This document shows, in pieces, positions 4,705-15,452 of a stretch of 17,890 bases of DNA. Each line of letters starts with the position of its first letter. Position 1 is the first letter of the stretch. The stretch is from Patescibacteria group bacterium (GTDB lineage: Bacteria; Patescibacteriota; Patescibacteriia; UBA2591; UBA6264): assembly GCA_022572625.1 (NCBI GenBank), contig JACZVN010000001.1, positions 1 to 17,890 on the forward strand, read 5' to 3'. Made by a program: the position numbers and the translations under genes. The notes under the pieces were generated by a model. It searched no databases. It saw nothing but the letters and a program-made list of their open reading frames with translations, and had not been told where the DNA came from.

Positions 4705-5154
4705 ATGCCAACCATTGCCAAGAACAAAAAAGCCTATCATGATTATGAAATTTTAAAGACTTTTGAAGCCGGAGTAATTTTATCTGGCCCAGAAGTTAAA
4801 TCGGCTCGATCCGGCCAGATTAATCTTGCGGGTGGTTATATTACTATTGACCAGCAGGAAACTCCCTGGCTGATTAATATTAGAATTGCCCCTTATCCGC
4901 CGGCTTTTACAGCTCAACAAAATTATGATCCGCTTCAAAATAGAAAAATACTTTTACATAAAAAAGAAATAATTTCATTGATTGGAAAAATAAGAACCCA
5001 GGGATTAACTTTGATTCCGCTAAGGGTCTATACAAAAAAAGGACTGATTAAAATAGAGGTTGGTTTAGTTAAGGGAAAGAAAAAATGGGATAAAAGAGAA
5101 AATATTAAAAAACGGGAAACAAAAATAAAAATTCAGCGCAGGCTGAAAAGATAA
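4705..5154 (+). CDS. smpB: SsrA-binding protein SmpB
   Basis: SmpB binds tmRNA and brings it to ribosomes stalled on mRNA without a stop codon. It mimics the anticodon arm of tRNA in the decoding centre. The 149 residues match the family size (about 145-160). Typical features are KNKKAYHDYEILKTFEAGVI at the N-terminus, SGPEVKSARSGQINLAGGYI, the beta-barrel strand GLTLIPLRVYTKKGLIKIEV and the GLVKGKKKWDKRE motif. The C-terminal tail is basic (KKRETKIKIQRRLKR), as needed for entering the mRNA channel. ATG at 4705 is the only sensible start and gives the expected N-terminus; there is no SD, and the -10 element lies just upstream. The partner tmRNA gene is in the same window at 9314. Confidence 0.96.
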   Translation: MPTIAKNKKAYHDYEILKTFEAGVILSGPEVKSARSGQINLAGGYITIDQQETPWLINIRIAPYPPAFTAQQNYDPLQNRKILLHKKEIISLIGKIRTQGLTLIPLRVYTKKGLIKIEVGLVKGKKKWDKRENIKKRETKIKIQRRLKR

Positions 5155-9243: not shown

Positions 9244-9284
9244 CCCTCGCCTCTTTATTTTAAGGTGAGGGATTGACTTTTTTA
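9244..9284 (+). terminator. Intrinsic terminator after fusA
   Basis: CCCTCGCC at 9244-9251 pairs with GGTGAGGG at 9264-9271 (eight pairs, one G-T) around a 12-nt AT loop. The T-run starts six bases after the stem (9278-9283), so it is not an ideal terminator. It separates the str operon from the tmRNA promoter, whose -35 begins inside its tail. Confidence 0.6.
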
Positions 9285-9301
9285 AAAAAATAAATTATAA
9301 T
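9273..9301 (+). promoter_or_regulatory. Strong sigma-70-type promoter for tmRNA
   Basis: TTGACT at 9273-9278 and TATAAT at 9296-9301 are separated by exactly 17 nt. The expected start, around 9307-9309, lies a few bases before the mature tmRNA 5' end at 9314. The downstream infC-rpmI-rplT genes could be served by read-through from here. Confidence 0.75.
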
Positions 9302-9313
9302 TAAATATCTTAT

Positions 9314-9666
9314 GGGGATGAACAATAATCGACGAAGATTGCAGATAAAAATTGCCTTTTGTCCTAAGGAAGACATAAAAAGTCTTAAAAACATATAAAT
9401 GGCAATAGAAATATGGCCCTTGCTGTAGCTTAATAAGTTATAGTCATCGATATTCTTGATTCCTACTATTGAATATTGATGTTATTTAGTAGGATAAGGT
9501 ATTGGAAACCGCTTGAAGTCCAATGCTGATCCAATCTCAAGCTAGGATTTTAGAAGTTTTGTCTAGTTTGAATTCTAAAATTCAAAAATTATCAACTAGA
9601 CTATAAAGGTAGAAATTTTTAGCTAATTTCTTACGGACGCGGGAGAATTACCCGCCATCTCCACCA
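9314..9666 (+). ncRNA. ssrA: tmRNA (SsrA RNA)
   Basis: This is transfer-messenger RNA, which rescues stalled ribosomes together with SmpB. The tRNA-like ends pair fully: 5' GGGGATG (9314-9320) with 3' CATCTCC (9656-9662), including the G3-U70 alanine identity pair, then A73 and an encoded CCA. The motif ATCGACG near the 5' end is the usual tmRNA signature. The tag frame is best read from GGC at 9401: GGC AAT AGA AAT ATG GCC CTT GCT GTA GCT followed by TAA TAA (9431-9436), giving a tag (A)GNRNMALAVA. Its ALAVA end fits the usual degradation-signal form. The total is 353 nt. The T-stem GCGGG/CCCGC (9639-9655) is intact, but its loop is AGAATTA, not the normal TTCrAnT, which is odd. Confidence 0.93.
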
Positions 9667-9719: not shown

Positions 9720-10235
9720 CTGAAATATTATCGCGTCAACAATAGAATAAGTGTTCCTAAAGTTCGACTAATTGATGAAAACAATGTTCATTTAGGCACG
9801 TTAGAAACAGAAAAAGCGCTTAAAATAGCGCAAGATAAAGGGCTAGATCTAATCGAAATTAGTCCTAAAGCTGATCCGCCGATTGCAAAAATTACTGATT
9901 TTGGTCAGTTCAAATATAGTCTAAAGAAAAAAGAAAAAGAGCAAAAAAAGCAAAAAAAAATAGGTGAAGTAAAGGGAATTCGACTAACCCCCAGGATTGG
10001 CAAGCATGATTTAGACTTCAGGGTTGAAAAAGCAAAGAAATTTTTAGCTCAAAATTCAAAAATTAAAATTGAAATGATTCTTAGGGGAAGAGAAAAAGCT
10101 CACTTTAGTTTAGCTAGAGATCTAATTAATCAATTCATCAGCCTTTTAGGAGAAGAAGTAAAAATTGAACAACTTCCGAAAAAACAGGGACACCGAATAA
10201 TTGCCCTGCTTAGCCCACTTAAACAAGTTAAATAA
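9720..10235 (+). CDS. infC: Translation initiation factor IF-3, apparent CTG start
   Basis: IF-3 binds the 30S subunit, keeps it free of 50S and checks start-codon choice. The frame has no ATG, GTG or TTG before its conserved N-terminus. An in-frame TAG at 9714-9716 is followed only by TTT CTG AAA TAT TAT CGC and then the IF-3 signature RVNNRISVPKVRLIDENN. The only near-cognate start is CTG at 9720, giving 171 residues, a normal length. The N-domain contains DLIEISPKADPPIAKITDFG; a Lys/Glu-rich linker (KKKEKEQKKQKKIGEVKG) joins it to the C-domain (IRLTPRIGKHDLDFR, KIKIEMILRGREKAH). Rare starts are known for infC elsewhere (AUU in E. coli) and allow IF-3 to limit its own synthesis; the same control here is inference. 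rpmI begins 3 nt after the TAA. No SD is present. Confidence 0.93.
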   Translation: MKYYRVNNRISVPKVRLIDENNVHLGTLETEKALKIAQDKGLDLIEISPKADPPIAKITDFGQFKYSLKKKEKEQKKQKKIGEVKGIRLTPRIGKHDLDFRVEKAKKFLAQNSKIKIEMILRGREKAHFSLARDLINQFISLLGEEVKIEQLPKKQGHRIIALLSPLKQVK

Positions 10236-10238
10236 ATT

Positions 10239-10421
10239 ATGAATAAGACTCGTAAAACAATTGCTAAAAGATTAATGGTCACTAAAACTGGAAAAATTTT
10301 GCACCGAACTTGCGGTCAAAATCATTTTAATGCTCGTGAATCAAGAAAAATTACTAAAAATAAAAGATCTGATAAATTAATTAGTAAATCTTTCAAAAAA
10401 ACTTTAGCGCAGTGTTTGTAA
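10239..10421 (+). CDS. rpmI: 50S ribosomal protein bL35
   Basis: This 60-residue basic protein of the large subunit has family features KTRKTIAKRLMVTKTGKILH, then the GQNHFNARESRKITKNKR segment and a C-terminal FKKTLAQCL. The usual pattern K-T-x-K-x-x-x-K-R-x-x-x-T-x-x-G-K-I is recognisable, although the alanine/serine stretch after KR is shorter than in E. coli. It is in the standard infC-rpmI-rplT order, 3 nt after infC and 39 nt before rplT. There is no SD; coupling to infC is likely. Confidence 0.94.
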   Translation: MNKTRKTIAKRLMVTKTGKILHRTCGQNHFNARESRKITKNKRSDKLISKSFKKTLAQCL

Positions 10422-10460: not shown

Positions 10461-10805
10461 ATGCCCAGAATTAAACGTGGTACAAGTCATGTCAAAAAAA
10501 GAAGGCGCATTTTAAAGGCAACCAAAGGCTATCGAGGTGGAAGAAGCACAAAAGTTAGATTAGCTAAAACCGCTATTAAAAAAGCTGGCGTTTATGCGTA
10601 TCGTGACCGACGGAGAAAAAAAAGAGATTTTAGGGCTCTTTGGTTAATTAGAATTAATGCCGCTTGTCGTAATCTTGAAACAACCTATTCTAAATTTATT
10701 GATGGTTTAAAGAAAAATAATATTGAAATTGATCGCAAAATCTTGGCTAATTTAGCTGAAAACCATCCTAAAGCATTTTCGGAAATTGTTAAATTGGTCC
10801 GGTAG
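10461..10805 (+). CDS. rplT: 50S ribosomal protein bL20
   Basis: bL20 is an early assembly protein of the 50S subunit, and in other bacteria it represses its own operon. Its 114 residues match the family. Recognisable are MPRIKRGTSHVKKRRRILKA at the N-terminus, KGYRGGRSTKVRLAKTAIKK, YAYRDRRRKKRDFRALWLIR and INAACRNLETTYSKFIDGLK. The C-terminus is ENHPKAFSEIVKLVR. The stop TAG (10803-10805) and the last three codons lie within the tRNA-Asp gene, which begins at 10796. The 39-nt gap after rpmI is AT-only, and no SD is visible. In E. coli, control acts through an rRNA-like mRNA structure; I do not see one that I can defend here. Confidence 0.96.
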   Translation: MPRIKRGTSHVKKRRRILKATKGYRGGRSTKVRLAKTAIKKAGVYAYRDRRRKKRDFRALWLIRINAACRNLETTYSKFIDGLKKNNIEIDRKILANLAENHPKAFSEIVKLVR

Positions 10806-10872
10806 ATCAACTGGTTAGATCGTCTGCCTGTCACGCAGAAGGTTGCGGGTTCGAGTCCCGTCCGGACCGCCA
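10796..10872 (+). tRNA. tRNA-Asp(GTC), overlaps the 3' end of rplT
   Basis: It is a complete 77-nt cloverleaf. The acceptor GGTCCGG/CCGGACC is fully paired, followed by T8 A9, D-arm GATC/GATC, anticodon stem TCTGC/GCAGA with loop CTGTCAC (anticodon GTC), 5-nt variable loop, T-arm GCGGG/CCCGT with loop TTCGAGT, discriminator G73 (aspartate identity) and an encoded CCA. Its first 10 nt are also the last three codons and the stop of rplT. A terminator follows at 10885. Bases 10847-10869 recur, with two changes, at 11989-12011. Confidence 0.95.
10847..10869 (+). repeat. Direct repeat, left copy (tRNA-Asp 3' part)
   Basis: This is the 23-nt T-arm/acceptor segment of tRNA-Asp, running from the GGG of the T-stem to G73. 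It matches 11989-12011 at 21 of 23 positions. With the right copy it brackets about 1.1 kb that contains only the broken dioxygenase gene. Such a pair is what integration into a tRNA 3' end leaves behind. Confidence 0.6.
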
Positions 10873-10884
10873 TTTGTAAAGTAA

Positions 10885-10912
10885 AAGACCGTTTTTATAA
10901 ACGATCTTTTTT
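10885..10912 (+). terminator. Intrinsic terminator after tRNA-Asp
   Basis: AAGACCGTTT at 10885-10894 pairs with AAACGATCTT at 10899-10908 (nine of ten pairs) around a TTAT loop, followed by TTTT. It closes the ssrA/infC/rplT/tRNA-Asp transcription unit. The next 86 nt, to 10998, are AT-rich and show nothing else. Confidence 0.8.
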
Positions 10913-14893: not shown

Positions 14894-14965
14894 TGCTCCC
14901 AGGAGGAATCGAACCTCCATCTCAGGATCCGCAATCCTGTACTCTATCCGTTGAGCTATGAGAGC
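14894..14965 (-). tRNA. tRNA-Arg(GCG), CCA not encoded
   Basis: It is a 72-nt cloverleaf: acceptor GCTCTCA/TGGGAGC (one G-T), T8 A9, D-arm GCTC/GAGT, anticodon stem CAGGA/TCCTG with loop TTGCGGA, 4-nt variable loop, T-arm GGAGG/CCTCC with loop TTCGATT, and A73. The anticodon is GCG, reading CGC (and CGU by wobble) for arginine, where most bacteria use ACG modified to ICG. No CCA follows A73 (TTTT), unlike the two other tRNAs of this window. The 5' end lies one base after the stop of the upstream membrane protein gene. Confidence 0.92.
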
Positions 14966-14966
14966 C

Positions 14967-15452
14967 CTAAATTTTCATCCATCGACCTAAACGGTCAATC
15001 AATGTTTCTTCTTTCTTTTCTAAATCTTCGGTTAAATAATTATTCAATACTTCACGGACTTTATCCACTTTTTGCTCTTCCAAAGGAACAGAAAAATCAG
15101 CAAAAAATGTATTTTTCAAATCAATATAAAGTCTTTTTATTTCCGGCGGCTTATAAACGAGGCGAAAATTATTAATATCATCCCATTCGTAAAATTTTTC
15201 ACCGATGGTTATACCTTGTTCTCTAATTTTTAATTCGACCTTAGCCGGGGAACGACGAACTTGCAAAACCAAAACTAAACCAAATAAAATCAAAAAAAGA
15301 GCAAAAAGAAAATTAACTGTAATTATAGAATAAATAACAAGAACAGCTAAAAAAATGATAATAACTACATACCATGACCGCCCTCTCTCATACTGAATAT
15401 ATTCTGGAAATTGCCAGCTGAGAATAATTTTATCATTGTTATTTTCCGTCAT
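14967..15452 (-). CDS. Two-pass membrane protein with cytoplasmic PH-like domain
   Basis: This 161-residue protein has unknown function. It starts with a short cytoplasmic segment containing WQFPEYIQYERGRSWYVVII, then two closely spaced transmembrane helices (about residues 29-70: VVIIIFLAVLVIYSIITVNF then LFALFLILFGLVLVLQV). A beta-rich domain follows, VELKIREQGITIGEKFYEWD, then NNFRLVYKPPEIKRLYIDL. A helical tail (EEQKVDKVREVLNNYLTEDL) ends the protein. The layout (two helices, then I..G......Y.WD.I..F) is that of YcxB/bPH-like membrane proteins widespread in CPR, as I recall them. There is no SD. The TAG at 14967-14969 leaves one base before tRNA-Arg, so the tRNA is probably cut from the same transcript. 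Confidence 0.82.
   Translation of the reverse strand: MTENNNDKIILSWQFPEYIQYERGRSWYVVIIIFLAVLVIYSIITVNFLFALFLILFGLVLVLQVRRSPAKVELKIREQGITIGEKFYEWDDINNFRLVYKPPEIKRLYIDLKNTFFADFSVPLEEQKVDKVREVLNNYLTEDLEKKEETLIDRLGRWMKI

Follow-up and report, generated by a model that had tools for sequence, protein, structure and literature searches.

A tRNA gene that begins before the preceding protein gene has ended raises the question of what becomes of the message once RNase P forms the tRNA 5′ end. Such an arrangement is present in the 17,890 nt of Patescibacteria DNA analysed here (the window), in which rplT, encoding ribosomal protein bL20, and the gene for tRNA-Asp(GUC) overlap on the plus strand. The rplT open reading frame covers positions 10461–10805 with the stop codon TAG at 10803–10805; its product clearly matched Pfam Ribosomal_L20 (3.2e-40), and the best named bL20 matches of the window were Patescibacteria. 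The tRNA gene extends from 10796 to 10872 including an encoded CCA; it was called as tRNA-Asp(gtc) by ARAGORN and matched Rfam RF00005 at 10796–10869 with 70 bits. Nucleotides 1–10 of the tRNA (10796–10805, plus strand) are at the same time the third base of TTG followed by GTC, CGG and TAG of rplT. The overlap reported in the first-pass annotation is thus real, but it comprises two whole codons, one base and the stop instead of three codons and the stop. The rplT stop codon coincides with U8-A9-G10 of the tRNA core, and tRNA-Asp bounds rplT directly with zero spacer, as in punctuation of the mitochondrial type.

The source assembly is a 640 kb draft of 137 contigs with a completeness of 75.8%, and an artefact of annotation or assembly might be suspected on these grounds. 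Against this, the identical offset was observed in five genomes of three families, each with a tRNA-Asp scoring 67–72 bits, which makes an artefact extremely improbable; the assembly explanation was rejected. As the offset recurs, at rplT in five of 134 genomes and at def in four of 22, it is unlikely to be an accident of one assembly.

For the comparison at rplT, bL20 was searched in 193 genomes, yielding a match in 177. The 3′ end of rplT was read in 134 of these, mostly the better-scoring matches, so that nearer relatives are over-represented. A tRNA-Asp on the same strand was the nearest tRNA within 380 nt of rplT in 33 of the 134. The rest had tRNA-Asp (4) or tRNA-Arg (1) on the other strand, no tRNA within 380 nt (88) or a flank that was too short (8). 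The overlap occurred in five genomes, each with TAG at tRNA nt 8–10, three of them belonging to the window's family (G000, G002 and G004) and two to two further families (G007 and G181). In eight others of the 33, a separate rplT stop codon lies 1–11 nt before tRNA-Asp. The check for conservation proposed in the first-pass annotation therefore showed that the overlap is not a one-off. An upstream rplT stop in close relatives, which the same annotation had held to speak against its proposal, was nevertheless present in three of six family members (G001, G003 and G005), 2–6 nt before the tRNA. This finding speaks against a regulatory device that is conserved, whereas the processing consequence at this locus is unaffected by it.

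On a tree built from IF3, bL35 and bL20, the overlap genomes occupy three separate places. G007 pairs with G019, which carries its own stop codon 8–9 nt before the tRNA; because its tRNA-Asp has G9, it offers no TAG at this place. G181 clusters with G089, in which tRNA-Asp is reversed. We read this tree as indicating at least three origins of the rplT overlap. Owing to low supports (0.05, 0.19 and 0.54), which leave the branching inside the window's family unresolved, the overlap may have arisen there one to three times. Two minor observations were made during the search. In G021 (L089) the rplT match is interrupted by a stop after residue 88 and has a further part in another frame, representing a sequencing error or a broken gene. 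Phage records also contained bL20 matches, which led to no further result.

The genes for tmRNA, IF3, bL35, bL20 and tRNA-Asp follow one another in this order on one strand. The tmRNA gene upstream in the cluster, claimed in the first-pass annotation, was confirmed by Rfam at 9314–9666 on the plus strand (RF00023, 94.5 bits, E 4.2e-36). It is followed on the same strand by an open frame at 9720–10235 with an uncertain start codon, which we take to be infC (IF3) from its resemblance and its place before rpmI-rplT, and by an open reading frame at 10239–10421, presumably rpmI (bL35) judging from resemblance and position. The tmRNA was missed by ARAGORN; within it, positions 9389–9436 contain the frame KHINGNRNMALAVA followed by two stops, which is likely the tag; read from this frame, the tag would end in ...NMALAVA. 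Reading the infC region by eye, we saw an in-frame TAG, one codon and then CTG AAA TAT TAT. Since ATG, GTG and TTG are absent near the expected start (9720–9745), infC likely uses a rare start codon.

Directly before the tmRNA gene, a promoter-like pair (TTGACT-17-TATAAT, 9273–9301, plus strand) matches the consensus at 11 of 12 positions and is a possible promoter of ssrA-infC-rpmI-rplT-tRNA. Between rplT and tRNA-Asp, located on one strand, there is no terminator, as in mRNA-tRNA operons processed by RNase P. Downstream of the tRNA, a terminator-like hairpin at 10883–10910 (plus strand) is followed by TTATTATT. The terminator that the first-pass annotation had placed after both genes was recovered as this hairpin with a T-rich tail in a loose scan (11 of 12 pairs) and in the predicted fold, but a stricter scan did not list it. 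A terminator-like hairpin was found 3′ of tRNA-Asp in four of the five overlap genomes. In G007, tRNA-Asp (L047, 1842–1915) has no encoded CCA and is directly followed by a run of T.

The overlap would be of little consequence if tRNA-Asp had its own promoter inside rplT and rplT transcripts were rarely cut. In the window, a consensus scan found no plus-strand promoter-like pair wholly within rplT before tRNA-Asp. The search for a separate tRNA promoter suggested in the first-pass annotation was extended to the 335 nt upstream of tRNA-Asp in all overlap genomes and yielded no pair of at least 9/12 in any of the five, with a scan for consensus pairs that has little power in AT-rich DNA and may be ill suited to the promoters of this lineage. 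The same 335-nt stretch gave a promoter-like match in all four abutting relatives tested, and these two points leave some room for an internal promoter. However, besides the lack of a match at the same threshold in the overlap genomes, the hairpins 3′ of the tRNA speak against it, and a read-through transcript of both genes would presumably still be cut. Overall, we regard a tRNA promoter inside rplT as unlikely. A TAAAAT hexamer, which might belong to a local tRNA promoter, is located about 10 nt before tRNA-Asp in G002. Since G002 (96% complete, 41 tRNAs found) and G004 (94%, 44 tRNAs) each show a single tRNA-Asp, the tRNA most likely derives from the rplT locus alone in these two genomes. 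With no promoter-like pair in rplT, a strong one before ssrA and a single tRNA-Asp in these two near-complete relatives, we infer from the sequences that the most economical reading is co-transcription in which the rplT stop codon is lost through RNase P cleavage.

Under co-transcription, the first-pass prediction of a non-stop rplT message agrees with the sequence, provided that the tRNA is made from the rplT transcript: the cut message would end in AAA TT with no stop codon, and a bL20 chain made from it would end in ...EIVK. A ribosome would come to a halt there with its A site holding two bases, which makes a classic tmRNA substrate. The machinery for cut and rescue is encoded: rnpB was found in the source genome above its cut-off, and the window contains both the tmRNA and the gene for its partner SmpB (4705–5154, plus strand; PF01668, 7.1e-51).

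Combining these data, we consider it probable that compaction led to a UAG of the tRNA core being used as a stop codon, with a non-stop mRNA left for tmRNA. Genome compaction would have drawn tRNA-Asp into the 3′ end of rplT, making it the predicted last gene of a tmRNA-infC-rpmI-rplT-tRNA transcript, and the core U8-A9-G10 would double as the rplT UAG. The full-length transcript should be translatable to its stop until RNase P forms the tRNA 5′ end; the putative cut at 10795/10796 would then remove the final codons together with the stop. Each transcript could thus end up as translatable rplT mRNA or else give tRNA-Asp together with a non-stop message, and the non-stop piece, which would carry no 3′ hairpin, would presumably be removed by decay and tmRNA-SmpB. 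The overlap itself would be a tolerated result of compaction and probably not a dedicated regulator.

Three known systems resemble this arrangement. In mitochondrial tRNA punctuation, tRNA genes delimit the mRNAs of a compact genome, and RNase P forms ends from the polycistronic transcript, as described in PMC4394434. The likeness consists in a tRNA bounding an mRNA gene in a compact genome. The fate of the stop codon differs between the two cases. In mitochondria, polyadenylation restores the stop of messages that end in U or UA after the cut, whereas an A tail cannot restore the rplT stop in any of the five overlap genomes. With an A appended, the cut ends of rplT read, in codons derived by hand, as the sense codons TTA, GTA, AAA, AAA and ACA in G000, G002, G004, G007 and G181, respectively; completion by an A tail was consequently rejected, and a cut rplT message would stay non-stop. 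The E. coli operons secG-leuU and metY-nusA are bacterial mRNA-tRNA operons processed by RNase P and share with this locus a protein gene and a tRNA on one transcript (here predicted) from which the tRNA is cut out. Their stop codon, however, lies outside the tRNA, so that the message keeps it, whereas the rplT stop lies inside. As for tmRNA-SmpB rescue, the window encodes tmRNA as well as SmpB, and the substrate predicted here, with two nucleotides in the A site, corresponds to the type handled by tmRNA; in contrast to the usual case, production of the tRNA would inevitably generate the non-stop mRNA.

The same geometry was found at a second gene. In the source genome (29 tRNAs found), the Pfam-verified def ends at nt 8–10 of tRNA-Gly(CCC). 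Within the order, def was matched in 22 genomes, and four of them (G000, G003, G018 and G019) have this def overlap at nt 8–10. In G007, def overlaps tRNA-Gly(CCC) with its stop at nt 13–15, and the genus mates G005 and G006 have gaps of 115 and 264 nt between the two genes. Elsewhere in the source genome, a candidate 107-aa open reading frame, which matched no Pfam family and was not counted as verified, ends at nt 8–10 of tRNA-Thr, the TAG of a frame that we take to be pilC-like shares its G with G1 of tRNA-Val, and six other open reading frames stop 1 or 4 nt before a tRNA. The rplT overlap is the only one in G002 (41 tRNAs); in G004 (44 tRNAs) it is accompanied by an overlap of one base at tRNA-Leu and by a candidate 86-aa frame reaching 29 nt into tRNA-Phe. 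In G007 (32 tRNAs read of 47 found), a DUF3419 gene (L320) shares 37 nt with the start of tRNA-Ser(tga) and probably has its stop, TGA, at about the anticodon, and a candidate 72-aa frame ends at about nt 10 of tRNA-Lys.

TAG occupies nt 8–10 in 18 of 29, 22 of 41 and 24 of 44 tRNAs of the three surveyed genomes (64 of 114 overall), with one extra 5′ base tolerated for ARAGORN ends. Of the ten overlaps at rplT and def, nine end at tRNA nt 8–10, a bias with p = 0.0004 against equal frames and p = 0.005 against the control-genome rate of 5/11, where the ten overlaps are partly related and not all independent. Should long overlaps do harm, such a bias would be expected as well. The control comprised 30 of the 43 tRNAs of a larger genome, Novosphingobium, and open reading frames of at least 60 aa. 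Here, 11 frames overlapped a tRNA, five of them ending at nt 8–10. As none of the five scanned (of the 11) matched Pfam, they look like chance frames of GC-rich DNA. The control shows that length alone is no proof of a gene and that frames entering a tRNA often end at nt 8–10 anyway, and it therefore lends weak support to anything beyond the Pfam-verified genes.

The remaining question is whether the overlap serves regulation. RNase P processing might limit bL20 (and IF3 and bL35), with tmRNA from the same transcript tagging the bL20 made from cut messages. The occurrence of the rplT overlap in three families and of ssrA in the same cluster at all five overlap loci would fit such dedicated control. 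Yet the tmRNA gene was also located upstream of infC at nine of ten non-overlap loci in a first set and at 14 of 20 in a second. In the first set, tmRNA was detected in 14 of 15 loci, the one exception (L033) being just 2135 bases long; in the second, five of the 14 matches were cut by the locus end, and among the six misses rRNA genes occupy this place in L039, L044 and L050, while L052, L055 and L163 show none. A tie between the ssrA position and the overlap was consequently rejected. Together with the absence of the overlap from close relatives and the identical geometry at def/tRNA-Gly, this makes dedicated control improbable, and the trade-off between bL20 and tRNA-Asp or control by tagging put forward in the first-pass annotation found no support. 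Compaction rather than regulation is favoured because the overlap varies among relatives, hits unrelated genes and is independent of the tmRNA linkage. Recurrence in two translation genes could still reflect selection for the overlap. At its most far-reaching, the arrangement would be a bacterial punctuation system lacking stop repair: RNase P in this order would set, like a timer, how long messages such as those of rplT and def remain coding, by removing the stop borrowed from the tRNA, and the tmRNA heading the rplT transcript would clear the result, thereby coupling tRNA to ribosome-gene output; we consider this idea equally doubtful.

As U8-A9-G10 is common in tRNAs, a gene that extends into a tRNA with this core can find a reserve stop codon there. 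With repeated use in this compact lineage, maturation of tRNAs would routinely yield non-stop mRNA and supply tmRNA with inherent work. A search of the literature from 2010 on yielded no paper combining stop codon, tRNA-Asp and rplT, and the titles and abstract beginnings searched contained no report of a bacterial protein gene with its stop inside a tRNA; in PMC4633059, tRNA punctuation is named solely among the references. For annotation pipelines that trim overlaps between genes and tRNAs, these loci are a warning.

Two further observations concern other parts of the window. The open reading frame at 1771–2370 (199 aa) matches ileS at residues 4–97 only and adjoins, within positions 1–2370, transporter-like genes of somewhat higher GC, possibly resulting from decay or an assembly join. 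On the minus strand, tRNA-Arg(gcg) (14894–14969) begins 1 nt after the stop of a 161-aa open reading frame, and a candidate counterpart of 166–170 aa ends 2–11 nt before tRNA-Arg(gcg) in G002, G004 and G007.
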